64,000 nt of DNA from Halobacteriovoraceae bacterium. Lineage in GTDB: Bacteria > Bdellovibrionota > Bacteriovoracia > Bacteriovoracales > Bacteriovoracaceae. Shown here piece by piece: positions 3,878 to 31,642 of this stretch (positions are counted from its first letter, which is position 1; each line of letters starts with the position of its first letter). The DNA is taken from the NCBI GenBank assembly GCA_002711995.1, contig PASN01000006.1, forward strand, positions 2,017 through 66,016. Direction: 5' to 3'. The position numbers and the translations under genes are program-made. The notes below the pieces were generated by a model, which saw only the letters and a list, made by a program, of their open reading frames with translations, was not told the origin of the DNA and searched no databases.

Positions 3878-5005
3878 TTATTTCGTGCAATGATTACTAT
3901 TTAGATATTCAACACCTCTAAAAACTTTATCTTTTAAGAAATCATACTTTTCTGGGTTGGCTTTTAAAAGTGCCAGCGGATTATAGCGATAGGCCGCCAT
4001 ACTTTCAGCAAAATCCTCTGCTGGATTAACCTGTCCATACTCGGATACAATCTTGTTTGGACTTTCTGTATCCATCGCCGTGTAGTGAATCTGCATTTCC
4101 ATAAGTTGCTTGTCTATTTTTTGCATGAGGCTTTCTTCCTCTAGAAACTCTACTTTTTGAAACCCAAAAGTATTGTTCAGACCTCTAGAAAGGTCGATGG
4201 AAAAGTCTGGCATAGAAAAAGCCTCCTCTTCCTTATTCATTGCTTGTTTAATCTCACGCTCTCTAACCGAGTTTACTTTCCAGTCACTTAAATCTAACCA
4301 ATCTTTCGATCTATCGATATTCAGTTCTCCTGAGATGTAGTGGCCTAATTCGTGGAAGGCAGTATATTCCTTTGATTCATCTGAAAGATCATCCGCTGCT
4401 CCAAAAATACGCAAGTAAGAGTTCGCAAGGGTGTCGCCTTCTGAGCTAGAATCGTGAATGAAGGCCTTGTTTCTATTTAATTTTCTTAGGTGCGTAGGAT
4501 AAGCAAGAACCGCTTTTAAGTATGGATCCACCTCATTGGGTTTCCATGGCCGTGCATCCTTATAAACATGATGAGATGGGTTTAGACCATACTTTACTTT
4601 CATGTATAAAAACTTGATTCCTCTCTTTTCTCCAAACACATTAGTTGAGAGACAAATAACATCTTTGCAATGTGCGTGTCGTGTTAGATCAAGAGCGTTG
4701 TGTTTTGAAACAACCATCTCTTTAAAATGCTCTATTAAATTTTTATCTTCTTCAGGCAAGTGTAACTTGCTGATTGTACCTCCTGAATTGTCCTCTCTTA
4801 TAGACTTTAGGTATTCGGCCATTGTGCTAAGAGAGGGGATTTCTCGTTTACAATGTGAATGGACAACCATCTTGTCAGATGCTGCTCGCCAGGTCTTTTT
4901 TTTAAGAGCATGTTCAATATATGGGTGGAGAGTGTCGGGTGCACCAACTTTTACATTATCTGCATATATGCTCATTGAAATAAGAATAAAGAAAAAAAAT
5001 TTCAT
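3878..5005 (-). CDS. exported HExxH metallopeptidase-like protein
   Basis: 375 residues with a signal peptide (about 1-15). The zinc-binding motif HELGH is at about residues 217-221, preceded by EYTAF, and further acidic residues lie downstream in NPAEDFAESMAAY, so Glu in that segment could be the third zinc ligand. This pattern is that of zincin metallopeptidases, but no named family is recognised. The long N-terminal part has several cysteines and may be a prodomain. The protein should act in the periplasm or outside the cell. It converges on the receiver gene with only six bases between. Confidence 0.6.
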   Translation of the reverse strand: MKFFFFILISMSIYADNVKVGAPDTLHPYIEHALKKKTWRAASDKMVVHSHCKREIPSLSTMAEYLKSIREDNSGGTISKLHLPEEDKNLIEHFKEMVVSKHNALDLTRHAHCKDVICLSTNVFGEKRGIKFLYMKVKYGLNPSHHVYKDARPWKPNEVDPYLKAVLAYPTHLRKLNRNKAFIHDSSSEGDTLANSYLRIFGAADDLSDESKEYTAFHELGHYISGELNIDRSKDWLDLSDWKVNSVREREIKQAMNKEEEAFSMPDFSIDLSRGLNNTFGFQKVEFLEEESLMQKIDKQLMEMQIHYTAMDTESPNKIVSEYGQVNPAEDFAESMAAYRYNPLALLKANPEKYDFLKDKVFRGVEYLNSNHCTK

Positions 5006-6629: not shown

Positions 6630-7502
6630 GTGATTAAGAAAACCTGCATTCTTATGTTGACACTTGCGACCGCAATCAGTGGATATGCTTGTGATGAAGA
6701 CGGTAAAACCGGATTTTTACCAGAAAATGATCTAAAGATCGGCGTATTTGATAAATCAAGAAATAATATGACTGAGGCTCGTTTCAATGAGATCATCGAC
6801 AAGGTTGACTCTGTTTACGCTTCAGTTGTTAGAAGCGAAGGTGGAAGGCTTAAATGGGCCAGAAATTGGGATGACGGCACTGTTAACGCGTCAGCTCAGA
6901 GAACTTTCTGGGGAACTTGGAAAGTAAACATGTATGGTGGTCTCGCCAGACATCCACTAGTTACTGATGATGGCTTTGCTCTAGTTGTGTGTCACGAGCT
7001 TGGACACCACCTTGGTGGAGCTCCTCAAACTGGTGGTCTTTTTATGAAGTGGGCCTCTAATGAAGGTCAGTCCGACTACTTCGCAACTTTAAAGTGTTTT
7101 AGAAGAGTTTTTGGAAACGATGACAACCAAGAGATTGTTTCAAAAATGAATGTTCCTAGCACTGTTCAAACGAAGTGTGAGGAAAAGTTCACTCAAGCTG
7201 ATGAAGTGGCGCTTTGTGTAAGAAGTTCAATGGTAGGAAAAAGCCTAGCCGAACTACTTGGTTCTTTGCGTGGAAGCAAAAACGTGAAGTTTGACACTCC
7301 AGACACTAAGAAAGTAAGCAAAACATTTAACGCTCACCCAGAAGCTCAGTGTAGACTTGATACTTACTTCCAAGGAGCTCTATGCGATAAAAGAGTTAAC
7401 GAGGATGTTAGCAGTGACGACGCGACTATTGGAACTTGCAATAGAAGCGAAGGTTACAACGAAGGCGTAAGACCACTTTGCTGGTACGCTCCACAATCTT
7501 AA
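6630..7502 (+). CDS. exported HExxH metallopeptidase-like protein
   Basis: 290 residues, GTG start with AAGGAGGG upstream. Signal peptide 1-20 ends in SGYA before CDEDG. The zinc motif HELGHHLGGAP starts at about residue 122 and is followed by SNEGQSDYFA, which could supply the third ligand. Multiple cysteines in the C-terminal half fit a disulfide-stabilised secreted enzyme. No named family is recognised. A strong terminator follows. It is unrelated in overall sequence to the peptidase-like protein at 3878-5005. Confidence 0.65.
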   Translation: MIKKTCILMLTLATAISGYACDEDGKTGFLPENDLKIGVFDKSRNNMTEARFNEIIDKVDSVYASVVRSEGGRLKWARNWDDGTVNASAQRTFWGTWKVNMYGGLARHPLVTDDGFALVVCHELGHHLGGAPQTGGLFMKWASNEGQSDYFATLKCFRRVFGNDDNQEIVSKMNVPSTVQTKCEEKFTQADEVALCVRSSMVGKSLAELLGSLRGSKNVKFDTPDTKKVSKTFNAHPEAQCRLDTYFQGALCDKRVNEDVSSDDATIGTCNRSEGYNEGVRPLCWYAPQS

Positions 7503-13696: not shown

Positions 13697-15607
13697 ATGA
13701 AACTTCTTTTAATACTGACTCTTTTTGTAGCCTTTTCATGCTCTAGTGATCCTAAAATTGTGATTATTAAACAGTGGCATCTTGCTCCCGGCAAAGACAC
13801 TTCCAATATTAAAGCGGGGAAGGCGCTTGCGCAGTATGAAAACCAGGTTGCAATTTATAAATACCTGGAAAAGAAAATTGAAAATAATCCTGTGATTATT
13901 GCAGAGGGATGCGAAGGAGAGATTGACCACGGGGCAAACTTTAACGGTTGGACCATTGAGACCTTAAGAAAGCACACCACCAGTTCTGAGTTTGAGAGTA
14001 TTATGGCACCCGTATTTATGAAACTAAAGGCGAAGTATCCGAACTCAAATATTGTTTGTGGCGATAACCTTAAGGACATAGAACTAAACAATTTGGCCTT
14101 CAGTGATCTTAGAGGTTATGCGGGATATTATGAAAGACTGGTGCAGAATAAAAAGGACCCCGAAATCTTCGATAAGTACAAACAGTCACTCAACGAGCTT
14201 GCTGGCAGGAAGGTGTCTAACCCAATCGAATACACCAGAACAGAGTCGCTAAAGGCCTTAAAGAAAAGCAAAGAATTAATTGAATCTAGAAATCACTCCT
14301 TCTATGAAGTAGCTAAGAAATATAAAGGCCAAGAGGTCTATATTGTTATCGGGGGAATCCATGCGCAACACTTGGGAGAACTATTTAAAAAAGACGAAAT
14401 CTCCTATGAAACATTCACTCCGAAAGGCTATGCTGAGATAGATCAACAACTGTATGAGGCCCTTGAAAAGAGCTTGATGAAAAAGGATGAAGGCCGCACT
14501 GTTTACTGGATGGAAGTGCCAAGAGGCTTTGATCCCAATAGTATTCCTATAGATAACCTTTTGGAAGTTAATGAGGTCTCAAGTCCAAGTGAATGGGAGG
14601 AGTTAAAGGCACTGCTAGAGCATGCTAATTTAAATCCCCAAATTCTTTTATCTGACTTCGATAAGGACGGAATAAGAGATTTTACAGTGTCCACCAGCGG
14701 AGCAATGATAATAATTAGCGCTGAGGATGAGGACTGGGACAATGATGGAGTGCTCAACCTTGTTGATTCTAGCTGGTCTTCATTCAATTACCCTGTAAAG
14801 ATTATCGATGAAGGGGACATTTCAAATCGCTTTAATGTTCAAGGAGTATCCGCGAATCAGCTTATAAAGGACTTAGGAAAAAGTGGGATATCTTTATTGG
14901 CACATGACGACCTAAAACATGATCTGCTTATCTTAAAAGTATTTGGAGACATTTTAGGCTATTTAAAGGATGGAGAGGCGAACGTGAAGTTTCTAAGAAC
15001 GTCTAAACCGTTGTTTAAATATGGAAAGGAAGTCTATTTCTCTTACAGGCCTAGCTCCAGAACAATTGATATTTATGTTGAAGATTTAATAGCTAAATTT
15101 AAAGAGATGCATCAAAAACATTATTCAAACAAAAGCCAGGCCGAGCTTGTAAAGGGTTACCTCTTGCCCCTTCTATACCACAGCCTTTCTCATGAGATCG
15201 TTCACTCTATGCAACTTCCTGTTGAGGAGATGGCGCAAGAGGGAGGTTGGACGTTTACGCGAGAGCCGCTTCAAAGCAGATACCTTAATCAGAAAAGACT
15301 AAAGCGAAAAATGATTCACCATACTCTAAAGGAACAGAAATTTAAAAATAAAACTGGGAGAGAGTGGCTTCAGGAGTTTAGAAAAGAGGAGAGTGACTTT
15401 TTAATAAAAAAGGGAATTCCGTCTTTATATTCATTAGAGAAGCCATCTGAATGGTTGGCGGAGGCAATATCCATGTGCTTCATGCGAAAAGCTTTTCCAC
15501 ATTCCAAAAACAAACAGGGCTCAAGGGGATTTGAAAAGTTATTGGGGATAAATCCCTCGTCCGTAGGTCAAAAATTCTGTAAAGAGTACTTTTCAGCGAA
15601 AGACTGA
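13697..15607 (+). CDS. multidomain lipoprotein: TraB/ChaN-like domain, calcium repeats and HExxH domain
   Basis: 636 residues. The N terminus is a lipoprotein-like signal (hydrophobic core then AFSCSS). Residues about 22-235 recall the TraB/TIKI/ChaN/EreA group: KQWHLAPG at the start, an Ile-Ile-Ala-Glu-Gly strand, and GGIHAQHL near 218. Two Asp-rich calcium repeats of thrombospondin type-3 style follow (DFDKDGIRD near 320, DWDNDGVLNLVD near 345). The C-terminal part has SHEIVHSMQL (HExxH near 498) with a nearby EEMAQEGGW. The combination suggests a surface or periplasmic enzyme. None of the domain calls is certain and I know no protein with this architecture. Confidence 0.55.
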   Translation: MKLLLILTLFVAFSCSSDPKIVIIKQWHLAPGKDTSNIKAGKALAQYENQVAIYKYLEKKIENNPVIIAEGCEGEIDHGANFNGWTIETLRKHTTSSEFESIMAPVFMKLKAKYPNSNIVCGDNLKDIELNNLAFSDLRGYAGYYERLVQNKKDPEIFDKYKQSLNELAGRKVSNPIEYTRTESLKALKKSKELIESRNHSFYEVAKKYKGQEVYIVIGGIHAQHLGELFKKDEISYETFTPKGYAEIDQQLYEALEKSLMKKDEGRTVYWMEVPRGFDPNSIPIDNLLEVNEVSSPSEWEELKALLEHANLNPQILLSDFDKDGIRDFTVSTSGAMIIISAEDEDWDNDGVLNLVDSSWSSFNYPVKIIDEGDISNRFNVQGVSANQLIKDLGKSGISLLAHDDLKHDLLILKVFGDILGYLKDGEANVKFLRTSKPLFKYGKEVYFSYRPSSRTIDIYVEDLIAKFKEMHQKHYSNKSQAELVKGYLLPLLYHSLSHEIVHSMQLPVEEMAQEGGWTFTREPLQSRYLNQKRLKRKMIHHTLKEQKFKNKTGREWLQEFRKEESDFLIKKGIPSLYSLEKPSEWLAEAISMCFMRKAFPHSKNKQGSRGFEKLLGINPSSVGQKFCKEYFSAKD

Positions 15608-15692: not shown

Positions 15693-15755
15693 GATACTCA
15701 GAGATAATATAAAGAAGTACTCAGAATTGGATTTGTTTTTCCGATAAGGTTGGTA

Positions 15756-17015
15756 ATGAAAACTGTCTTAACTTTTACATTCGCTTTTCTATTTATGCAC
15801 GGCCATAGCGCTCTGGCTAAAAATGTCGCTATTGTAAAGATGGTTCGAGGCAGCGCTCACTCAATACTCAACGGTGCTAAGTTAGAACTTAAAAAGGGGA
15901 CTTGGATCGAAGAGGGATCCACTGTTAAAACGGCCTCTAAAAGTTTTGTGCGTTTGAGCTTTGTGGACAAATCCACTATGAATGTAGGTCCTTCTTCTCA
16001 AATGAAAATAGAAAAGTTTTCAAAGCAAGAGGCCGGAGTTATTAATGTTCTTTCAGGAAAAATAAGATCCCAAGTTTCAAAAGACTATCTTAATATGGAC
16101 AAGGATAAATCAAAGTTGTTCGTCAAAAGCAAATCTGCTGTAATGGGAATACGGGGAACTGATTTCATATTCAGCACCAATGCTCAAACCGGCGCAACCA
16201 CTGCGGTTTTATTTGAAGGATCTGTCGTTTTCAATAAATTAGATCCTCTTGAAAACGTGAATGACCTCGAATCTATTGTAGATAGGGGACACCGAATTAA
16301 TCCTGGCCGGTTTTCTGTGGCAAACAGCGCTCTTGCAAGACCAACTGTTCCTGCCAAATTGGCATCCACTCAGTTTAGGGCCTTGAAGAAAAATACAGAA
16401 TTTGTTGATGTCTCCATTAAAGAAGGGCTTAAGCAGAAAAGAGCTCTGGTACCTCCAGGCCTCTCTGGCAGGGCCGTGGCCTCTACTGAAGAAGGTCTAA
16501 AAGAAGTTATGGATGTTAAGGGTAAAAGACAAGAAATAAATATTGATGAAACAAAAGGCTTCGTCAGAGGTGATGATGTAAAACCTGTTGATGGCTCTCT
16601 TGTTCATATTGATTCAGGTACGATTATACCTTTAGGCAAGGATTCCAAGTTTGATCCTAATGCCAAAGAATGGGTCTCTCCATCATTTGATGTGGATGCA
16701 GACGGTGAGGTTGTTCCACCTCAAGGCTATATGTTAAATGATGATGGCACTCTTTTGAAGATGGAGAAAGAAGAGTTTAAAGAAGTGAAGCTGGAAGTTA
16801 GACCGCTTGACGAGGTGCCTAGTCTGGAAGATATTCCAGTAAGTGACACAGTTAAGAAAAGGGGACCAGCTCCTGCGGGAATCAATGACTTTATTGATGG
16901 CCTAGAGAGACCGCCTATAATAGACGGCTATACGATTCCTAGAGATAATCTACCTGATTATAGAAATACTTTGCCCAAGACACCTACAAGGTTTGAGGTG
17001 AGAAAGGGCCAATAA
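15756..17015 (+). CDS. exported FecR-domain protein
   Basis: 419 residues from the ATG at 15756, which has AAGG six bases upstream (a TTG two codons earlier is less likely). After a signal peptide (about 1-21) the FecR domain spans about 25-155: RGSAHSILNGAKLELKKG, then GSTVKTASKSFVRLSFVD and the end segment SAVMGIRGTDFIF. The rest is proline-rich and acidic with no known fold. Exported FecR-domain proteins of this kind, without a sigma factor partner, often occur beside TPR/beta-barrel genes, as here. A structural or peptidoglycan-associated role is inference. Confidence 0.75.
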   Translation: MKTVLTFTFAFLFMHGHSALAKNVAIVKMVRGSAHSILNGAKLELKKGTWIEEGSTVKTASKSFVRLSFVDKSTMNVGPSSQMKIEKFSKQEAGVINVLSGKIRSQVSKDYLNMDKDKSKLFVKSKSAVMGIRGTDFIFSTNAQTGATTAVLFEGSVVFNKLDPLENVNDLESIVDRGHRINPGRFSVANSALARPTVPAKLASTQFRALKKNTEFVDVSIKEGLKQKRALVPPGLSGRAVASTEEGLKEVMDVKGKRQEINIDETKGFVRGDDVKPVDGSLVHIDSGTIIPLGKDSKFDPNAKEWVSPSFDVDADGEVVPPQGYMLNDDGTLLKMEKEEFKEVKLEVRPLDEVPSLEDIPVSDTVKKRGPAPAGINDFIDGLERPPIIDGYTIPRDNLPDYRNTLPKTPTRFEVRKGQ

Positions 17016-17070
17016 GCGGAAACTAATTCCTCAATGCTATGATTCAAAGAATTAGATCTATAATAATAGG

Positions 17071-18675
17071 GTGAAAAGCTTTTTATTTATCACCCTATTT
17101 ATATTCTCCAATCTTGTTTTCTCCCAAAGCAATGACACTAAAGAGATTCTGCAGGAGATCTATTCATCTTATGAAAAAGGTGAGTATGAAGAGGCCATAT
17201 CTCTTTTAGCCAATGTGTCTAAAAACTTTGAGAATCATTCTAAAAACCATGAAAATTTAAAAGGCCTGATCAACTATTGGCAGGGACTTTGCTATGTCAG
17301 ACTCAATGAATTTGAAAAAGGCATAGATAAACTTAGACTTGCAATTAAAGAGAACTACGCCGCAAGCGATGTTTATTATGAATATGGCCAGGCACTATAC
17401 GCTTCTCTAGAGCTTAAGAAAGCGCGAATCGCTTTCAAAAAGTCGGTTGAGGCCAAGTACAAAATGGCCGTCTCAATGTATTATATAGGTTTCATTTCAC
17501 AAGAGATTGGCGACTTAAAAACAGCCGCGAGTTTCTACAACGCTATTGAAAAACTTCCCCTCGATGAAAAGAAAGATGTGGTACAGGCCGCTAGAATGCA
17601 GCTTGCTCAAATCTATCTTGATCAGGTTAGAGAAAAGGGGATGGGAGCAGTCGCAATTGAAGAATATGTGCTGCCAATGTATCGCAAGGCCTTGAAATGG
17701 GACGAAGAGAGCTCTCTAGCAGTTGAAATTAAGGCCAAGATTGAAAGCATTCAAAGAAGATATAATCTTGTACTCTTTCAACTTAGAAATGGAAGACCAA
17801 CAGCTAGGCCTGCTTACTTTTTAAAAACCAACATTAAATATTCAATAGATGACAACGTGAATGCTTATGACAAGGACACCCTTGAAACATTGAAGGAGGA
17901 AGAGTATTCCTCAAGTCTTTATGAAGTAGGGGCATTTGGCAGATACACATTTTATCCAAATTCATCTTTTAGCCTAAGTCCCCAATTTAACTTTGGCTAT
18001 ACTAAATACTTATCGGAAGAGAGTGCTATCACAAGAAATGACAACTACTTCTTTACTGGAACACTTCAGACAACTTATGAGCACTTTTTCAATGAAGCTC
18101 CCGCCACTACTTATTTAGATATTGGCTACACCTATAATGCCGATGATATTGATGAAGATGAGAGTCTGGAGAAGTCCGACACTGTAGCTTCTGTGACTTT
18201 AAGTGAGCAGTTGCAAATATGGAAAAATAACCCGTCCACTTTTAGATTGCGCTACGCCCAGACCAACGCCGAAGACGCAAACAACGAACTATCTAGTTAT
18301 GGAGTGGTGTACGAGCAGGCAATTGCGGCATTGAACTCACTCTTTTATCTCTACACAGCTTACGATAAAAACACATATGCAGAGAGGACCAGCGAGGACA
18401 ACGTTTCCACAACTATTAGATTGGACGCGTTGATGCCTGATGTTTATAACTTATTCAACCCGAACCTCTACGCTTCCACTTTTTCAGTTGACTATGAAAA
18501 CGATGCTGAAAGAGGCACAACAACCTTGAATACTATTGGATTAAACCTTAACAGGCCTGTGGGTAAAAATTGGTTTTTATATGTGGACTACGCTGTTTCA
18601 AGCCAGACAGGAAATAATGACACTGACAACTACGAGAAGCAGGTCGTTACTGTAAATCTGGATTACATTTTTTGA
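17071..18675 (+). CDS. TPR plus outer-membrane beta-barrel protein
   Basis: 534 residues, GTG start, signal peptide about 1-18 (LVFSQS at the cut). Residues about 20-230 are helical TPR-like repeats (YEKGEYEEAISLLANV, YYEYGQALYASLELKKA). From about 245 to the end, alternating aromatic and polar strands predict a beta-barrel, closing with QVVTVNLDYIF, whose last residue Phe is the usual outer-membrane barrel signal. It lies 55 bp after the FecR-domain gene and is probably co-transcribed. The pair may form a surface assembly or secretion unit, but this is inference. The 3' end overlaps the convergent plsC-like gene by 13 bp. Confidence 0.7.
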   Translation: MKSFLFITLFIFSNLVFSQSNDTKEILQEIYSSYEKGEYEEAISLLANVSKNFENHSKNHENLKGLINYWQGLCYVRLNEFEKGIDKLRLAIKENYAASDVYYEYGQALYASLELKKARIAFKKSVEAKYKMAVSMYYIGFISQEIGDLKTAASFYNAIEKLPLDEKKDVVQAARMQLAQIYLDQVREKGMGAVAIEEYVLPMYRKALKWDEESSLAVEIKAKIESIQRRYNLVLFQLRNGRPTARPAYFLKTNIKYSIDDNVNAYDKDTLETLKEEEYSSSLYEVGAFGRYTFYPNSSFSLSPQFNFGYTKYLSEESAITRNDNYFFTGTLQTTYEHFFNEAPATTYLDIGYTYNADDIDEDESLEKSDTVASVTLSEQLQIWKNNPSTFRLRYAQTNAEDANNELSSYGVVYEQAIAALNSLFYLYTAYDKNTYAERTSEDNVSTTIRLDALMPDVYNLFNPNLYASTFSVDYENDAERGTTTLNTIGLNLNRPVGKNWFLYVDYAVSSQTGNNDTDNYEKQVVTVNLDYIF

Positions 18676-19298
18676 TCTAATTCGCTTACACCTGACTCCA
18701 CAGCAGCTCTCGTTTTTTCCATTAATTCTGTCATGTTCGCAAGAGTCAATCCTTCAGTGGGGATGGGTTCAAGGTATTTTACTTTGACGTGCACTGAGTT
18801 CCATTTATTGAGATCCATGTCTTGAACATATTCTGAAATTGCAAAAGGAACAATTGGAAGTTGAGTTTGAATGGCAGTGTGAAATGCGCCCTTTTTGAAC
18901 GGCAACAAACCTTTTTCTGGATTTCTCGTGCCTTCAGGGAAAATCACAACAGATAGGCTTTTTTCAATCAGTTTTCTTCTAACGTGCTCCAAACTCTTGC
19001 GAGAGCGCTTTTTACTCTTTCGATCAACGAACACATTGCCCCCAAAGTAAAAGCATAGTCCAAGGAAGGGAACATATAGAATTTCTTTTTTCCCTAAAAA
19101 AACCACGTGTTCCGCAAAGGCCTTCGAGGCAACCAAAACATCAAGGTTGTGTTGGTGATTGCCAACGAGAATTGATGGCCTTGAGTCGGTCATGTTGTGC
19201 CTGTTGAATTCTGTGTACTTAAACCCCATAGGTTTTAGAGTCAAAAAGCCAAAGACTTTAAAAAATAAAGACGTGTTCTTGGGATTGTAAGGCCTCAA
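18663..19298 (-). CDS. plsC: 1-acyl-sn-glycerol-3-phosphate acyltransferase
   Basis: 211 residues. The acyltransferase motifs are in order: NHQHNLD (HxxxxD catalytic dyad), the glycerophosphate-binding segment GGNVFVDRKSKKRSRK, FPEGTRN and the fourth block LPIVPFAI. The enzyme makes phosphatidic acid from lysophosphatidic acid at the inner membrane. The start used is the only usable in-frame start codon near the expected N terminus (TTG) and has no ribosome binding site; ATGs at codons 24 and 36 are alternatives. It lies downstream of the two-component pair on the same strand. Confidence 0.85.
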   Translation of the reverse strand: MRPYNPKNTSLFFKVFGFLTLKPMGFKYTEFNRHNMTDSRPSILVGNHQHNLDVLVASKAFAEHVVFLGKKEILYVPFLGLCFYFGGNVFVDRKSKKRSRKSLEHVRRKLIEKSLSVVIFPEGTRNPEKGLLPFKKGAFHTAIQTQLPIVPFAISEYVQDMDLNKWNSVHVKVKYLEPIPTEGLTLANMTELMEKTRAAVESGVSELDQKM

Positions 19299-19368
19299 AA
19301 AAAGATAGGCAACGTAACTATGGCGGAGATTAATATAGAAAGTGGAAAATATATGAGACGAGCAATTT

Positions 19369-20757
19369 TTAACATTTTTCTAGATTAGGCAGAGATATGG
19401 TAAAAGTCGAGCCTATACCTCTTGCAGAAGTGGCTTTAATTGAGCCTTGATGCTTTTGAACAATGTGCTTAACAATTGATAGGCCAAGCCCAGCTCCTTC
19501 GATGGCCTTATCAGCATTCCCCTGAACACGATAAAACCTTTCAAAAATTCTATTTTGCTCCATCGCCGCAAATCCAGGACCATTATCTTTAACAACGATA
19601 TTAATCTCCGTAGGAGACTCTTCCTTTTCGATAGAGATTAGAACTTCCTCTTTGTCCGAATACTTAATGGCATTGTCGACCAAGTTGGAGAAAACCTGTT
19701 GAAAGAGTTGTCCGTCGCCATAAAGTTGTATTTCTTGGTTTAATTGAATCTTAAAATCCTTATGCAAATATTTGCCTTTCATGTCCGCGGCTATATTTTT
19801 TATCATCGAGTTGAGGTCGAACGATTCTTTAATAAGCTCTTGTTTTGACTCAATAACAGAAAGCTTTAAAAGGTTGTCAAAAAGATCTTTAAGCCTTTCT
19901 GTGTTGCTGTCTATCTTGTCTAAAACAGGGGAGAGCTGAGCTGGTATTTGAGATTTTTGGGCCTTTAACAACTGACTATACCCTTTAATGGATGTTAATG
20001 GCGTCCTAACCTCATGACTTACATTGGCGACAAAGTCGACTCTCATTTTCTCATTAAGCTTCGCCTGGGTGACTTCGTGAAAAATGCCCAATGCTCCTCG
20101 GGTTTCGCCTTGCACATTCTCAACAGGCGTCACGGCGAAGTCAAAGTATTGATTGGAGCTCTCAAAGTACATGGCCTTTATCTTTACTTCTTTACCCTCT
20201 GTAGCACTATGGAAGGCCTGATAGATTTTTTCCTGGTCAAAAATTTTCCAAAGCTTTTCAGAGTTTACAATTTGAACGTCTCTATCCTTTATAAAAGTCT
20301 CAGAAAAGCTCTTATTGTACTGTTTTAAATTTTCATACTTATCAATAATGACAATAGGGCTTGGGATTGAATTTAATAGCGTATTTGATTGTATAATCCG
20401 ATTTTCAAAATTTTCTTTTTGCTCTTTTAAGTGTTTTTCAGTTAGTCCCAGCATTTCTTCTATCAGTTGGAATTCATCTTTTTGATATATTAAATCCAAT
20501 TTTTTCTCATGGGGAAGCTGGTCTTGAATAGTGTCAATCCTTCCAAGAGATCTTTTGATAGGACCGATCTTAAAGTATTCTTGCAAAAATACAAAAAGGG
20601 ACATGCCCAACACAACAAAAATGATTCTTGTTAGGCTAGAGTCTGGCGCCAATCGGTCAGAAATGTAAGTAAGTATGCATGCCACAATTATGATTGTGAC
20701 CTTCGCCCTTACAGCGCCGATATAGAAATGCCATGGAAATGGTTCTTTATTGTTCAT
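19369..20757 (-). CDS. PhoR-like sensor histidine kinase
   Basis: 462 residues from the ATG at 20757, which overlaps the end of the regulator gene by 11 bp. Hydrophobic segments near residues 15-60 anchor it in the membrane. A PAS-like domain follows (IPSPIVIIDKYENLKQYN). Dimerisation and phosphoacceptor region: NVSHEVRTPLTSIKGYS, His near 245. ATPase: LVDNAIKYSDKE, DNGPGFAA and GAGLGLSIVKHIV. This layout (membrane anchor, PAS, HisKA, HATPase) is that of PhoR/WalK kinases. The cognate regulator is the adjacent upstream gene. The signal is not known. Confidence 0.9.
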   Translation of the reverse strand: MNNKEPFPWHFYIGAVRAKVTIIIVACILTYISDRLAPDSSLTRIIFVVLGMSLFVFLQEYFKIGPIKRSLGRIDTIQDQLPHEKKLDLIYQKDEFQLIEEMLGLTEKHLKEQKENFENRIIQSNTLLNSIPSPIVIIDKYENLKQYNKSFSETFIKDRDVQIVNSEKLWKIFDQEKIYQAFHSATEGKEVKIKAMYFESSNQYFDFAVTPVENVQGETRGALGIFHEVTQAKLNEKMRVDFVANVSHEVRTPLTSIKGYSQLLKAQKSQIPAQLSPVLDKIDSNTERLKDLFDNLLKLSVIESKQELIKESFDLNSMIKNIAADMKGKYLHKDFKIQLNQEIQLYGDGQLFQQVFSNLVDNAIKYSDKEEVLISIEKEESPTEINIVVKDNGPGFAAMEQNRIFERFYRVQGNADKAIEGAGLGLSIVKHIVQKHQGSIKATSARGIGSTFTISLPNLEKC

Positions 20758-21439
20758 TATCTTGAAAACGATACCCAATACCGCGTATGGTTTCAATAAG
20801 ATAAGACTCTGAGCCAAGCTTTTTTCTTAGGCCTGCAATATGGGTGTCAATGGTTCTGCTGGTAACATGAACGTCATCTCCAAGGATGGAGTCGATTAAA
20901 TCTCTTCTTTTATGAACGGTGCCAGGCCTTGAGGAAAGGAGAATCAAGATCTGAAACTCGGTGTGCGTGAGTTTTATCTCTTCGCCGTTTACCTTTACTC
21001 TCGCTTTTGGCTCGTCAATAACAAGCTCTCCAAATCTAACCTCTCCTTTTGGGGCAGTGTCTGAAGACAGTCTTCTTAACTGTGCCCTAACGCGCGCTTG
21101 GAGAACCTCAAGGTCAAATGGCTTCGTTATGTAGTCGTCTGCACCAGCGTCAAGGCCTTCCACGATATTGTCCGTTTCGGCTAAGGCCGTGAGCAAGATA
21201 ATAGGTGTGTTTTGGTGTTTTTCGGAGTCTCTTAGTGACTTGCAGATATCAATGCCATTGGTATCTGGGAGCATTCGATCAATGATAAAAAGATCGAATT
21301 CTTTGTTATCAATGAGTTCACTGGCCTCTTTTCCATTTTGGGCGGTGAATACAGAGTAGTTTTTTAACTGTAGCTGAAGAAAGATTAGGTCTCTGATGTC
21401 TTCTTCATCTTCAATGACCAATATTTTGATGTCTTGCAT
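20747..21439 (-). CDS. OmpR/PhoB-family response regulator
   Basis: 230 residues from the ATG at 21439, chosen for GGAAGG upstream; an ATG ten codons earlier lacks one. The receiver (about 1-120) has the acidic pair in VIEDEEDIRD, the phosphoacceptor in FIIDRMLPDTNG, Thr in ILLTALAE and Lys in DDYITKPFD. The C-terminal winged helix has TSRTIDTHIAGLRKKL, the recognition helix, and the final hairpin ETIRGIGYRF. It should act as a dimer on direct repeats about 11 bp apart, the geometry of the CTTAAG sites at 1895 and 3411, although no link is proven. It forms an operon with the kinase. Confidence 0.92.
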   Translation of the reverse strand: MQDIKILVIEDEEDIRDLIFLQLQLKNYSVFTAQNGKEASELIDNKEFDLFIIDRMLPDTNGIDICKSLRDSEKHQNTPIILLTALAETDNIVEGLDAGADDYITKPFDLEVLQARVRAQLRRLSSDTAPKGEVRFGELVIDEPKARVKVNGEEIKLTHTEFQILILLSSRPGTVHKRRDLIDSILGDDVHVTSRTIDTHIAGLRKKLGSESYLIETIRGIGYRFQDNEQ

Positions 21440-21507
21440 GATCGCACCTTCCAGGAATGTGCGTATCATATCCTATCTGAAAAAAATTTAAAAGCTGGTT
21501 TTAGGCT

Positions 21508-21533
21508 TAAGAAAGAGGGGCCTGAGCCCCTCT
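21508..21533 (-). terminator. intrinsic terminator of the superoxide dismutase gene
   Basis: AGAGGGGC-4 bp-GCCCCTCT, perfect 8-bp stem located six bases after the sodB stop. On the minus strand it is followed by a short T-rich stretch (TTTCTTAA). Confidence 0.65.
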
Positions 21534-21538
21534 AATGA

Positions 21539-22111
21539 TTATAAATTGGAATTTACAAAGTCCCAGTTTACAAGGTTCCAGAAGTTCTCAATGAACTTTG
21601 GACGAGCGTTTCTATAATCGATGTAGTAAGCGTGCTCCCATACATCAATTGTTAAAAGCGCTTTTTTTCCATGATTCATCGGAGTGTCAGCGTTGCTTGT
21701 GTTCATGATATCAAGCTTTCCACCGTCTTCGATCAACCAAGTCCAACCTGAACCAAAGTTTCCGGCCGCTTTAGTAGAGAATTCTTCCTTAAACTTGTCG
21801 AAAGATCCCCATTTCTCATTGATCATATCAGCTACTTTGCCGCTAGCAGCTCCCCCTTTACCTGGTCCCATACAGTTCCAGAAAAAAGTGTGGTTCCAAA
21901 CTTGCGCTGCGTTGTTAAAGATTCCACCTTCAGACTTCTTGATAATGTCTTCAAGAGGCATGTCAGCAAATTCTGTATCCTTAATTCCAGCGTTTAGTTT
22001 AGTCACGTATGCGTTGTGGTGCTTTCCATAGTGATATTCAATAGTTTCTTTGGAAATGTGTGGCTCTAGAGCATCTTGTGCCCAAGGAAGCTCAGGTAAT
22101 TTGTGTTCCAT
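21539..22111 (-). CDS. sodB: superoxide dismutase, Fe type
   Basis: 190 residues, GGAGG upstream. All metal ligands are visible: His in [10 protein letters not shown], His in WNHTFFW, and Asp and His in [29 protein letters not shown] places the active-site Gln (AAQ) where iron enzymes carry it, and [10 protein letters not shown] is the family core. No signal peptide, so cytoplasmic. It dismutates superoxide to peroxide and oxygen. It is a single-gene unit ended by the hairpin at 21508-21533. Confidence 0.95.
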
Positions 22112-25626: not shown

Positions 25627-26529
25627 ATGAAAGTCCTGCTGTCGGTATTTTTGTTTGCTCAATTCTGTCTTGCTAAAGGCGGGTATCTCTTTGTGGAGTC
25701 GCACTTCAATCCAAACCAGCGTTGGACCAAGTTTTCAAAAGATGATGAACTCAACGTTAAAAACTTGATACAGCACTTGGTAAAATCAACCTCAGGAAAA
25801 AAACTTTTGCTCAAGGCCAAAAGAAAGGCGGCCAAGCAAGGATTAACCCTTTTAGATGTTATAAAACCAGGCGAGGGCTCATTGACTGACACAACGTTGA
25901 TCAGAAGATTTTCACCAAGAAGCCCTGAACATATAGCTTACGAAACAAAGTCCGTAGTTTATGTTAATAGAAGCCTGAATCAATATGATGCTATTTTGGA
26001 CCTAGCACATGAGCTAACTCACTTTGTTTACAGAAGAGACTTCAATCCATACAGAAGTGATTTCTCATTAAGTGAATTTATTAAAAACACAATTGAAGGT
26101 ACTGGGGGAGAGGTGCAAGCATTCGTTAGGGAGTGCCAAGTACTTAAGGAGCTTTTCCCTGTAAAATACAATGATCGCTATAACTGTGGCAAAATCCTCG
26201 ATCCCAAAACTGGAAAAATTTCTTATGAATTGGCCGTAAAGCGTTTCTACCAAGTGGGAACCTTTGAGGATCCATTTAAGAGACTGCTGTTAAAAGAGGG
26301 GATCTTGTCAGACTTTCCAGAGCTTAATGCTGAAGAGGTGTCATTTGTTTCCAGCGCTTACGGTGTACCTTACCCTGTGGCGGCCTATAAAGAATACAAG
26401 TCTGTGATGAGCAAGGTTTGTTCAAATGACAAAAAGAGAATTGCCTACTTGGATCAAACCAAAAAGGGAAGAAACCCCGCTTCGAGCTTTATCAAAAGCT
26501 ACCATGAAAAGTGCAAACACTTTGAATGA
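25627..26529 (+). CDS. exported HExxH (gluzincin-like) peptidase
   Basis: 300 residues with a signal peptide (about 1-16, FAQFCLA at the cut). The zinc motif HELTH is at 128-132 in LDLAHELTHFVYRRD, and TGGEVQAF places a Glu about 30 residues later (162), the spacing of gluzincin third ligands. Three to four cysteines lie after it. No named family is recognised. It follows the lipoprotein operon by 37 bp and may be its last gene. The stop is directly next to the end of the convergent gene. Confidence 0.65.
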   Translation: MKVLLSVFLFAQFCLAKGGYLFVESHFNPNQRWTKFSKDDELNVKNLIQHLVKSTSGKKLLLKAKRKAAKQGLTLLDVIKPGEGSLTDTTLIRRFSPRSPEHIAYETKSVVYVNRSLNQYDAILDLAHELTHFVYRRDFNPYRSDFSLSEFIKNTIEGTGGEVQAFVRECQVLKELFPVKYNDRYNCGKILDPKTGKISYELAVKRFYQVGTFEDPFKRLLLKEGILSDFPELNAEEVSFVSSAYGVPYPVAAYKEYKSVMSKVCSNDKKRIAYLDQTKKGRNPASSFIKSYHEKCKHFE

Positions 26530-28959: not shown

Positions 28960-30336
28960 TTAGGGCATTCCGTCTGAAATTGTCCAACTTCTGGTCTCAA
29001 GTGCGGCCTTCGCATTATCCCCGTCGACAGTCGCAGTTGTCGCATCACCAGCATCAATTGTGAGACTGTCTGGTGCAGTTGCATTGAGTGCAATTAGAAG
29101 GTTGTCGTAATTTGAGGAGGACAAGTTATTAGCTCCTTGAAAAAAACCTGAGATGTTAGTTAAGCTGGAAAAATCCCAAAGTGACATGTCTGGATCTGCC
29201 GAGGTGGCACCAGAAAACATGAAGCTCATATTTTGCATGTTAGAGGTGTCCCAATTGGAAACATCTGGGTTGGCAGATGTTGCATTTAAGAACATCCCCG
29301 AAGGGTTGGTGATATTGGACGTATTCCAATTGCTAATGTCGGGGTTTGCTAATGGCGCGTATCCAAACATTTGATACGTGTTGGTAAGCTTATCTGTTTT
29401 CCAACTTGAGGTATTAGGGTTTGCTATGTCTGCGTTATAAAACATGCGATACATTGTCCTTACGTTTGATACATCCCAGTTTGTAGTATTTGGACTGGCA
29501 GCATCTGATTGATAAAACATGTTGTCCATATTAGTTACACGATGTGTATTCCAATTAGTGGTGTTAGGAACAGCGCTGGAGGAGTTATAAAACATATATG
29601 ACATATTTTTTACATTTGAAGTGTCTCCGCCATCGACCGTGACTAGGTTTGAACAGCCTCTGAAAGCATCTTGAAAGTCCCTCCAGCCAACAGTTCCGAG
29701 CTCAGGCACTGCTATAATCTTGCTTGTTTCTCCTGATATATCAAATTCAACTGATTCCACTAGGCCTGTTAGAGTGATGTTGTAATCCCCAGGAGCAAGA
29801 TATGTGTGGTTTTTATCAGTGTCTCCATATGAGGTTACTTCTGCTGTGGTACCATCTCCCCAGTCTACCGTGAAATCATACCTGTAGAGGTTGTTCAAAG
29901 GCAAAGTTACATCCAAGTCTCCTCCTGGAATTGTCCATGTCATTACAAATGGAACCACATCACGAATATTGGTTCTAACTCTTAGTGGCTCCGAAGTGTA
30001 AGCACCATCTGTAATTGTGTAGTGGAAATCACCGGTACTAAATGTCTCTATTGGAGTCAGACCAACCACGCACTCAAACAAGGGGCATGAGCAAGGAGTT
30101 GTGATTATTACATTTGAAAGTTCGCTGACTTCGCATGAGTCGGGAAAAACTCCCAACTCGTGGGGGAGTGAAATAAATTGTTCATATCCTTTTATTAAAG
30201 TCACCTCTGAATTAATCTCCAGTTGGGAGACTGAATTCGGTGAGAGGGAGGGGCTGCTGGAAGTGCCAGAAGACTTTCCACAACTTATAAGTAGTACATT
30301 TAAAATGGAGATTGAAATCGTTTTCAATTTTTTCAT
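28960..30336 (-). CDS. BspA-like surface lipoprotein with PKD-like domain
   Basis: 458 residues from the ATG at 30336, where a lipoprotein signal begins (LLISC then GKSSG). Residues about 130-190 contain a PKD-like domain with the tell-tale YDFTVDWGDGTTAEV. From about 205 to 400 there are repeats of about 23 residues of the DUF285/BspA type, for example NTTNWDVSNVRTMYRMF and NPDVSNWDTSNMQNMSFMF. It ends in DGMP. Such proteins lie on the cell surface and mediate adhesion in other bacteria. It is a tandem paralogue of the broken gene upstream. Confidence 0.85.
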   Translation of the reverse strand: MKKLKTISISILNVLLISCGKSSGTSSSPSLSPNSVSQLEINSEVTLIKGYEQFISLPHELGVFPDSCEVSELSNVIITTPCSCPLFECVVGLTPIETFSTGDFHYTITDGAYTSEPLRVRTNIRDVVPFVMTWTIPGGDLDVTLPLNNLYRYDFTVDWGDGTTAEVTSYGDTDKNHTYLAPGDYNITLTGLVESVEFDISGETSKIIAVPELGTVGWRDFQDAFRGCSNLVTVDGGDTSNVKNMSYMFYNSSSAVPNTTNWNTHRVTNMDNMFYQSDAASPNTTNWDVSNVRTMYRMFYNADIANPNTSSWKTDKLTNTYQMFGYAPLANPDISNWNTSNITNPSGMFLNATSANPDVSNWDTSNMQNMSFMFSGATSADPDMSLWDFSSLTNISGFFQGANNLSSSNYDNLLIALNATAPDSLTIDAGDATTATVDGDNAKAALETRSWTISDGMP

Positions 30337-30337
30337 A

Positions 30338-31642
30338 TTAAGGCATCCCATCTGTTATTGTCCATCCTCTGGCCTCTAATGCAGCCTTCGCATTATCTCC
30401 ATCAGCAGTCGTGGTAGTCGCATCACCCACATCAATTGTAAGGTTGTCTCTTGCTGTGGCGTTGAGACTAACTAGGAGGGCATCATAGTTTTCAGAGGAT
30501 AAATTATTTGCATTAAGCATAAAGTCTTCAATATTAGTTACAAGGCTAAAGTCCCAGTTACTTGTGTCTGGATTCGCTTGGGCGGCATACCCAAACATTC
30601 CTTCTGCTTCAAATAGGCTTTGTGTGTTCCACCCACTGACATCAGGGTTAGCTACTAGAGCACCATAAAACATGAAATTAGATCTAAGTAGACTTTCTGT
30701 ATTCCAGTTTTGAGTATCTGGGGTGGCGACTGTAGCGTCATTAAACATTTGACTCATGTCCACCACATGTGAAACATCCCAATTGCTTGTATCTGGGTTT
30801 GCTACATCGGTATCACGAAACATGGAAACCATTCTGGTGACTCTTGAGGTATTCCATGAGCTCGTGTTGGGGTCAGCATTTAAAGCTCCGTAAAACATGT
30901 AATTCATATCTTCAACGTTTGACGTATCGCCTCCTTCTAATGTCGTAAGGTTCGTGCAACTCCTAAAGGCATCCCGTAAAATTCTCCAGCCGACTGTTCC
31001 AAGTTCTGAGACAGAAATTAATTTGTCACTAACTAGTGTTGCACTAAGTTTTATTGCCTCAATATGACCTGACATTGTAATGACGTAGTCTCCGGCGGAA
31101 GCGTATGTATGATCAATGTCGGGGTCGTTAAAGGCCGTAATCTCTGAACTAGAGCCGTCACCCCAATCTACAGTAAAGTCATATCTGCCACCTATTACAA
31201 GTGGTAATGAAAAATCCAAGTCTCCACCGGGTATTCTCCAAGTTTAAACAAATGGAACAACATCACTAATCTTAACTGATGTTCTATGAGTTTCTGTTAA
31301 TGTGTTATTTGATAGAGTGTAGGTGAAGTTTCCACTGGTTTTTGAGTTCATTGGTGTCACTCCAACCTTGCAGGATCCCGAGCTACAGTCGCAAGGAGTT
31401 GTGACTTCCACGTTCCAGATTTCCGAGATTTCACATGAATCGGGTGGAGAAAATACATTAAAACCACCTGCATTATAAGGCAGAGATACGGTCTGCTCAT
31501 ATCCCTTTATTAGTGTCACTTCGGATGAAATTGGATGCTGGCTAGTAAAGGTGTTTGAGTTGAGTTTTGGACTGGATGAACCACTAGATCCGCCACAGCT
31601 GGCGAAAATAGTCACACTCAATAAAATAAAAAATACGTTCAA
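30338..31642 (-). pseudogene. BspA-like surface lipoprotein gene interrupted by an in-frame stop
   Basis: Two open stretches (31642-31244 and 31219-30338) are in the same frame and separated by one TAA at 31244-31246. The first has a lipoprotein signal (IFASCGGSSG) and the N-terminal domain, and the second the PKD-like domain (YDFTVDWGDGSSSEI) and DUF285 repeats. The intact paralogue reads VVPFVMTWTIPGGDLD where this reads VVPFV, stop, TWRIPGGDLD, so the stop replaces a Met codon and nothing else is lost. The start is TTG with GGTGG nearby. This is a recent nonsense mutation, a sequencing error, or a phase-variable or read-through case. Confidence 0.85.

Follow-up and report, generated by a model that had tools for sequence, protein, structure and literature searches.

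A lineage-specific lipoprotein that joins a TIKI/TraB-like domain to a gluzincin-type metallopeptidase domain in a Halobacteriovoraceae bacterium

What kind of protein is encoded at positions 13697 to 15607 of a 64,000-nucleotide stretch of DNA from a Halobacteriovoraceae bacterium (hereafter the window), and has its combination of domains been described before? A preliminary description had proposed that a lipoprotein signal, a TraB/ChaN-like domain, two Asp repeats and a C-terminal HExxH segment are carried by one polypeptide, and this layout was confirmed. The features of the gene, its product and its two conserved neighbours were as follows.

13697 to 15607, (+): fused lipoprotein gene, 636 aa, ATG start, without internal stop
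13697 to 13741, (+): predicted lipoprotein signal, residues 1-15, with lipobox-like Cys15 (by eye, and from the S/G-C context in 9/9 fused proteins)
13754 to 14491, (+): TIKI/TraB-like domain, approximately residues 20-265 (relatives' Pfam matches, fold comparison, order of motifs)
13778 to 13780, (+): His28 of QWH, putative active-site His 1 (invariant in 29/29)
13904 to 13906, (+): Glu70 of EGC, putative catalytic Glu (invariant in 29/29)
14288 to 14290, (+): Arg198 of the RN motif, putative conserved basic residue (invariant in 29/29)
14351 to 14362, (+): GGIH, residues 219-222, putative active-site His 2 (G219 and H222 invariant in 29/29)
14654 to 14680, (+): Asp repeat 1, residues 320-328, DxDxDGxxD (sequence motif)
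14726 to 14767, (+): Asp repeat 2, residues 344-357, DxDxDxDGxxNxxD, thrombospondin-3-like (sequence motif)
14768 to 15604, (+): gluzincin-type metallopeptidase domain, residues 358-636 (profile searches, motif conservation)
15191 to 15205, (+): HEIVH, residues 499-503, putative zinc-binding and catalytic motif (9/9 fused proteins, 31/31 proteins counted)
15428 to 15463, (+): Tyr578-x6-Glu585-x3-Glu589, putative transition-state Tyr and third zinc ligand (Tyr-Glu step shared with Pro-Pro endopeptidases)
15750 to 17015, (+): FecR-domain protein, conserved downstream neighbour (PF04773, E 3e-12)
17071 to 18675, (+): TPR and outer-membrane beta-barrel protein, conserved second neighbour (Pfam matches, locus comparison)

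Predicted anchor, Asp repeats and module boundary

The signal of the window protein was judged by eye to be hydrophobic and to end in AFS before Cys15, with Ser at +2; its lipobox is looser than the classic L-x-[AGS]-C, being atypical at -2 and -3. A Cys preceded by S or G closed the signal in 9/9 N-termini of the fused family, and Asp was found at +2 in none of them. According to the E. coli sorting rule, the absence of Asp at +2 favours the outer membrane, so the lipid anchor predicted at Cys15 is probably located there. No Pfam or NCBIfam model matched the window protein above its cut-off, and the whole fused protein had one match in the window's own genome.

Both Asp repeats of the preliminary description were present, as D320-F-D-K-D-G-I-R-D328 and D344-E-D-W-D-N-D-G-V-L-N-L-V-D357. 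When the protein was shuffled 100,000 times, two DxDx[DN]Gxx[DN] motifs arose in 0 cases and at least one in 0.1%. The TSP_3 model (PF02412) scored 15.1 bits on the middle third, below the cut-off of 25, with the loop pattern present, and weak TSP_3 matches were obtained in 14/20 relatives of the C-terminal domain. The loops DxDxDGxxD and DxDxDGxxNxxD are thus like those of thrombospondin type 3 repeats, whereas the window protein has few of them, placed as a spacer ahead of the protease. What changed from the preliminary description was the division of the protein: because at least one Asp repeat was carried by 21 of the 22 non-fused C-domain proteins (none in L088), the fusion junction was placed before the repeats, at about residues 265-315, and the repeats were grouped with the protease module.

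The N-terminal domain and its TIKI/TraB affiliation

Among 29 aligned N-domains, stand-alone ones included, the residues Q26-W27-H28, N49, E70-G71-C72, W85, L90, K109, C121, R198, G219 and H222 were all invariant. The active site of the TIKI superfamily comprises two His, two Glu and one basic residue (PMC6254334, in the part available). Its order of His, Glu, basic residue and GxxH was recovered at the level of sequence as H28, E70, R198 and G219xxH222, so that of these five residues only the second Glu was missing, its position being occupied by Gln26. The 2His/2Glu endopeptidases of RRSP type have this Glu at position -2 from the first His; in the N-domain it was replaced by Gln26 in 29/29. 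Two GxxH motifs are characteristic of the TraB family; the second was found in the N-domain, and the first read KQWH in the window protein and GQWH in a relative (L013). The RN...GxxH layout was shared with 2/3 TraB proteins of the phylum (L096 and L097). Compared with the superfamily as a whole (TraB/PrgY/GumN PF01963, erythromycin esterase PF05139, ChaN PF04187 and RRSP), the N-domain therefore resembles it in motif order, in RN...GxxH and in its top fold matches, and differs in KQWH at the first motif, in Gln at the second Glu of RRSP, and in C72, C121, W85 and K109 as invariant residues of its own.

The codons of Cys72 and Cys121 lie at 13910-13912 and 14057-14059. Both residues were invariant in 29/29 N-domains, Cys72 stands two residues after the putative catalytic Glu70, and the two may form a disulphide or an extra ligand pair. 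To our knowledge, such a pair does not occur in TraB or ChaN.

The family assignment was examined by profile, fold and alignment comparisons. The window protein itself was not matched by TraB_PrgY_gumN (PF01963). This model was matched by 3/13 N-domain members in a first set (best E 0.0093) and by 4/18 in a second (best E 5.2e-5), the two sets sharing five members, and was the Pfam family matched by most N-domain members; single members of the second set matched unrelated families about equally well (dynamin-like helical domain, 7.9e-5; DUF5682, 1.4e-4). An AlphaFold2 model of the N-domain, built from two sequences, was usable but middling (pLDDT 67, pTM 0.62). In the PDB, Foldseek placed erythromycin esterase EreC at ranks 1 and 2 of 375 (E 0.0068 and 0.014, TM 0.28-0.29), and in the BFVD a viral TraB family protein ranked 1 of 497 (E 0.017, TM 0.33); no match reached E < 0.001, and the top matches had rmsd > 12. 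Single matches of this strength carry little weight, and the naming of the same superfamily first by two fold libraries was taken as support. VIA-align with the same model gave a best Z of 7.5, none at or above 8, and its top rows were not TIKI proteins; 2qgm, 2rad and 3b55 were matched at Z 5.1-5.7, and EreC was absent among the best 50 matches listed. The entry 3b55 is the Ere-family protein Bcr135 (PMC6254334, in the part available). Profile searches of the PDB with two N-domain alignments, A1 and A7 (A7 holding 18 proteins, all among the 29), returned unrelated weak matches and no superfamily member.

In profile comparison, the 29 N-domains reached 24.9% against a three-row TraB alignment and 9.3% against ChaN (23 rows), compared with 0.9% and 0.3% for the best of 20 shuffles and 0.1% and 0.5% for the reversed alignment. 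The score with EreA was 1.6%, within shuffle noise (best shuffle 1.7%). For the narrower alignment A1, the scores with TraB and with ChaN were both only 2.1%. For scale, accepted pairs of the superfamily scored 64% (ChaN-EreA), 1.2% (ChaN-TraB) and 0.1% (EreA-TraB) in the same test. The stretch aligned with TraB was the RN...GxxH region. For these comparisons 23/30 ChaN rows were kept (L109, L117, L120, L122, L125, L127 and L130 were left out) and 18/22 EreA rows, from which ORFs of at least 500 aa had been removed; an interrupted N-domain ORF (L011) was left out of A1 and the later N-domain sets, and L050 was dropped because the ORF chosen there held no domain that could be scored. Half-length PF04187 (ChaN) matches, covering about positions 1-107 of 213, were also seen in G000:C13:252284-252589 and in many other genomes; across the phylum they lay mostly within open frames of about 500-680 codons.

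Taken singly, every one of these scores is weak. Read together, the Pfam matches of the relatives, the fold searches and the motif order supported the earlier proposal of a TraB/ChaN-type N-terminal third, and the N-domain is best read as a member of the TIKI/TraB superfamily.

A domain of this superfamily need not be an enzyme. PrgY, which is thought to sequester pheromone, offers a model for a regulatory TIKI/TraB-like domain, and the N-domain may likewise bind a peptide or restrain the protease, the zincin being the only enzyme of the protein. Its first motif, without the GxxH glycine and with Gln26 in place of the Glu two before the His, is what such a reading would expect, and superfamily members without the catalytic set are known, such as PMT (PMC6254334, in the part available). 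The invariance of H28, E70, R198 and H222 in 29/29 sequences, however, is more than binding would need, and this arrangement is considered possible but rather unlikely. The reading of the N-domain as a second hydrolase-type domain was preferred.

The gluzincin-type C-terminal domain

At a threshold of 1e-5, the C-domain profile was matched by 31 distinct proteins, 9 fused (that of the window included) and 22 not. This set was obtained from 37 matches by dropping repeats of one protein; it covers the loci retrieved rather than the full 55 genomes mentioned below, and was found with a profile containing the motifs counted. HExxH was present in 31/31. Y-x6-E-x3-E followed in 28/31 and Y-x6-E-x3-D in the other three, so that Tyr-x6-Glu was kept in 31/31; in shuffled tails, Tyr-x6-Glu-x3-Glu arose at a rate of 3.1% per protein. 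Across A6, an alignment of C-domains, 13/13 rows kept HExxH, the Tyr and the two Glu unchanged. The counts were taken from the sequences themselves because the MAFFT alignment A8 shifted the window HExxH by four residues. Among fused proteins, C-domain identity to the window was 26-47%.

In PPEP-3, the HEXXH motif is made up of His153, Glu154 and His157, the oxyanion residue is Tyr190, and Glu197 serves as third ligand (PMC12828418, in the part available). The seven-residue step from Tyr578 to Glu585 equals that from Tyr190 to Glu197, whereas the Tyr lies 33 residues past the last His of HExxH in PPEP-3 and 75 in the window protein. Based on HExxH and the distal Tyr578-x6-Glu585, the C-domain is assigned by its motifs to the gluzincins, the HExxH being accompanied by this further conserved Glu and Tyr.

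The nearest named families were approached only through relatives. In a Pfam scan of 20 C-domain relatives, ATLF (PF07737) was matched weakly by 7/20 (best E 5e-4), Peptidase_Mx1 by 5/20 (2.7e-4) and Peptidase_Mx by 4/20 (4.4e-5), the two Peptidase models staying below the cut-off where scores were given, and none of the three matched the window protein. The C-domain thus shares HExxH and these weak matches with ATLF, differing from ATLF and the Pro-Pro endopeptidases in the Asp repeats in front, and its link to the putative zinc-binding metallo-peptidases Peptidase_Mx and Mx1 (PF15887, PF15890) runs through relatives, not through the window protein. DUF4344 was rejected as the family: it scored 17.7-19.4 bits on the window protein against a cut-off of 29.6, was matched by 2/9 fused members and 1/20 of the broader set, and exceeded the cut-off in 0/97 genomes. 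The structure model of the C-domain was too poor for fold search (pLDDT 30.6). A profile search of the PDB with C-domain alignment A2 gave only unrelated weak matches, and one with A8 gave weak, mixed matches that included several metallopeptidases.

Three further ORFs with motifs of this kind were observed in the window. At 3881-5005 (-) lies a second gluzincin-type protein of 375 aa with HELGH and Y-x6-E-x3-E and without Asp repeats, which matches the A6 profile (E 1.6e-4) and, weakly, Peptidase_Mx (E 0.004). At 6630-7502 (+) a secreted-looking, zincin-like 290-aa protein carries HELGHHLGG, with no Pfam match at E 0.1. The protein at 25627-26529 (+) carries HELTH, with a sub-threshold M78 match (E 0.0021), and is located beside lipoprotein-like genes.

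Distribution, neighbourhood and proposed role

In the class search, 14/129 genomes matched the whole protein at E 1e-5 or better. Both domains were present in nine of these (the window's genome, G018, G019, G025-G029 and G124), in G124 as two pieces, each cut short by a contig end, with neighbouring genes on the two contigs that match the window's two flanks. The search for full-length homologues that the preliminary description had proposed thus recovered the same order in eight other genomes, which belong to the same family as the window's; a named full-length relative (L002) came from a Bacteriovoracaceae genome. The N-domain alone was found in the remaining five (G045, G071, G074, G075 and G094). 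In G094 the stand-alone gene (L011 / L177) is interrupted by TGA, which may reflect a pseudogene, a sequencing error or recoding.

Across the phylum, the N-domain profile matched 35/368 genomes, one of them by a weak 99-aa fragment, and the stand-alone open frames listed ranged from 275 to 493 codons, mostly near 300. The first C-domain profile gave five weak extra matches, four of which (L061, L062, L064 and L065) proved to be true relatives that share the Asp repeats and HExxH; L063, sensor-kinase-like, was rejected as a chance match. Extended by these four, the profile matched 55/368 genomes at a loose cut-off, many of the matches being weak or partial and some spanning the HExxH region only. 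The 22 non-fused C-domain proteins counted had open frames of 286-530 codons. Since both modules are also found by themselves in other members of the phylum, the window protein is a lineage-specific fusion. It is a new combination of known parts and not a categorically new protein. A tree of the 29 N-domains placed the nine fused rows on one side of a branch with support 84/90, below the program's 95/80 mark; this branch was found in 85% of 200 bootstrap trees, with the root not fixed. This grouping is compatible with one fusion event, its direction being a reading of an unrooted tree. The unfused modules were not found as neighbours of each other: no zincin occurred among the neighbours read at 11/11 N-only loci, and no N-domain at 9/9 zincin-only loci. 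No relative was found in viral contigs with alignment A1, or of the whole protein in plasmid and phage collections.

The order of fused gene, FecR-domain gene and TPR/beta-barrel gene, all codirectional, was kept in 8/8 fused loci with readable downstream sequence (the window, L160-L165 and L168; the contig of G027 ends too early), with identities to the window's neighbours of 44-64% for the FecR-domain protein and 36-72% for the TPR-barrel protein. The same pair stood without the fused gene at 5/5 inspected loci (L199-L203; the L202 contig begins shortly upstream, and the absence there was taken from the class search), and TPR-barrel matches occurred in 108/125 genomes, mostly without the fused gene. 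These distributions indicated that the locus already existed when the fused gene entered it or was lost from it, and the pair as a dedicated partner of the fused protein was weakened by its standing alone. Upstream, a gene for Endonuclease I abuts or overlaps the fused gene in 5/9 genomes (L160-L163 and L166) and is absent as a neighbour in the window and the other three; the adjacency hints at macromolecule digestion. The locus present beyond the fused gene spans 15750-22111 and comprises, besides the FecR and TPR-barrel genes, genes that we take from their sequences to be (PlsC,) PhoR, PhoB and superoxide-dismutase-like. At 28960-31219 (-), two adjacent ORFs carry repeated MFxxA...SxWxT-type units like those of surface repeat proteins, presumably resembling DUF285/BspA-like repeats.

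The conserved neighbours raise the alternative that the TPR-barrel protein, acting like Slam, places the lipoprotein on the surface, where its protease trims surface proteins in the manner of PPEP-1, as a switch for adhesin shedding. The codirectional order at all readable loci, the TPR and barrel architecture of the neighbour, TPR_Slam matches in 6/12 members (best E 0.0016) and the PPEP-like Tyr/Glu spacing are in line with this, and lipobox genes adjoin 185/353 Slam homologues (PMC5449769, in the part available). General TPR models, however, scored far above TPR_Slam on the TPR-barrel protein, the Slam barrel model was absent among the best 25 of 29 families, and the TPR-barrel mostly occurs where the fused gene does not. 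Such a role is regarded as unlikely.

The explanation judged probable is instead that two hydrolase-type domains were fused in this lineage into an envelope-anchored protein that acts on envelope or extracellular protein. This explanation builds on the observed domain order and conservation, the grouping of the fused forms, the occurrence of the modules alone and the motifs; metal and calcium binding, catalysis, location and substrate are proposed from them as follows. The lipid anchor at Cys15 would hold the protein in the envelope. H28, E70, R198 and H222 of the N-domain would activate water and cut a peptide (or ester) bond, and the linker, with two calcium loops of thrombospondin-3/EF type, would stiffen and support the C-terminal gluzincin. 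There, H499, H503 and Glu585 would bind zinc, Glu500 would be the general base and Tyr578 would stabilise the transition state. The two sites would most likely work in series or on one substrate, whether exported, envelope, or prey and environmental proteins, perhaps together with a secreted nuclease in some of the relatives.

The C-terminal part of this scheme would fail if the HExxH domain were a pseudoprotease or structural and the Asp repeats only bound cell wall or a partner. A precedent is CD1597: this PPEP-like protein has an N-terminal domain and an intact HEXXH, and it was inactive in the tests tried (PMC11460543, in the part available). HExxH and Tyr-x6-Glu, however, were kept in all fused proteins, at the C-domain identities of 26-47% given above, and in all 31 counted, and a non-catalytic domain appears improbable. 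A broader version of the fusion, a surface machine in which TIKI-type and zinc-type protease centres on a calcium-stiffened lipoprotein, exported by a Slam-like TPR-barrel and in some genomes co-transcribed with a nuclease, dismantle prey or neighbouring cells, is as a whole equally improbable. The weakest reading, a ChaN-type N-domain that frees and holds haem from cut haemoproteins, has in its favour that ChaN belongs to the same superfamily (PMC6254334, in the part available) and the weak ChaN profile score, but Cofac_haem_bdg was not among the Pfam families listed for the N-domain, PF04187 occurs elsewhere in 71/97 genomes and TraB matches better, so that it is very improbable, and haem is the least supported of the haem, ester and signal roles suggested earlier for the partner domain.

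As the preliminary description had supposed, no described protein with this domain order was met in the open-licence literature: among the matches listed, seen as titles and the starts of abstracts, for TIKI/TraB/erythromycin esterase, Bdellovibrio metalloproteases, Pro-Pro endopeptidases, Slam and Bacteriovorax, the combination was undescribed. A Bdellovibrio proteome study reports an uncharacterised zinc-metalloprotease-like predator protein, and its available part does not contain this architecture (PMC12546842).

The combination identified here is new, real and conserved, it is limited to one lineage, and its two domain types are recognisable but divergent. If the favoured reading is right, two unrelated peptidase-type folds would have been fused in nature, and it predicts that stand-alone proteins of both kinds in the phylum share substrates or a pathway. 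It also points to a group of gluzincins, many of them with Asp repeats, of which the 20 members scanned were only weakly matched by Pfam. The phylum is known for predatory bacteria, and its proteolytic machinery is of practical interest. The fusion is of interest to specialists in both predatory bacteria and metallopeptidases.
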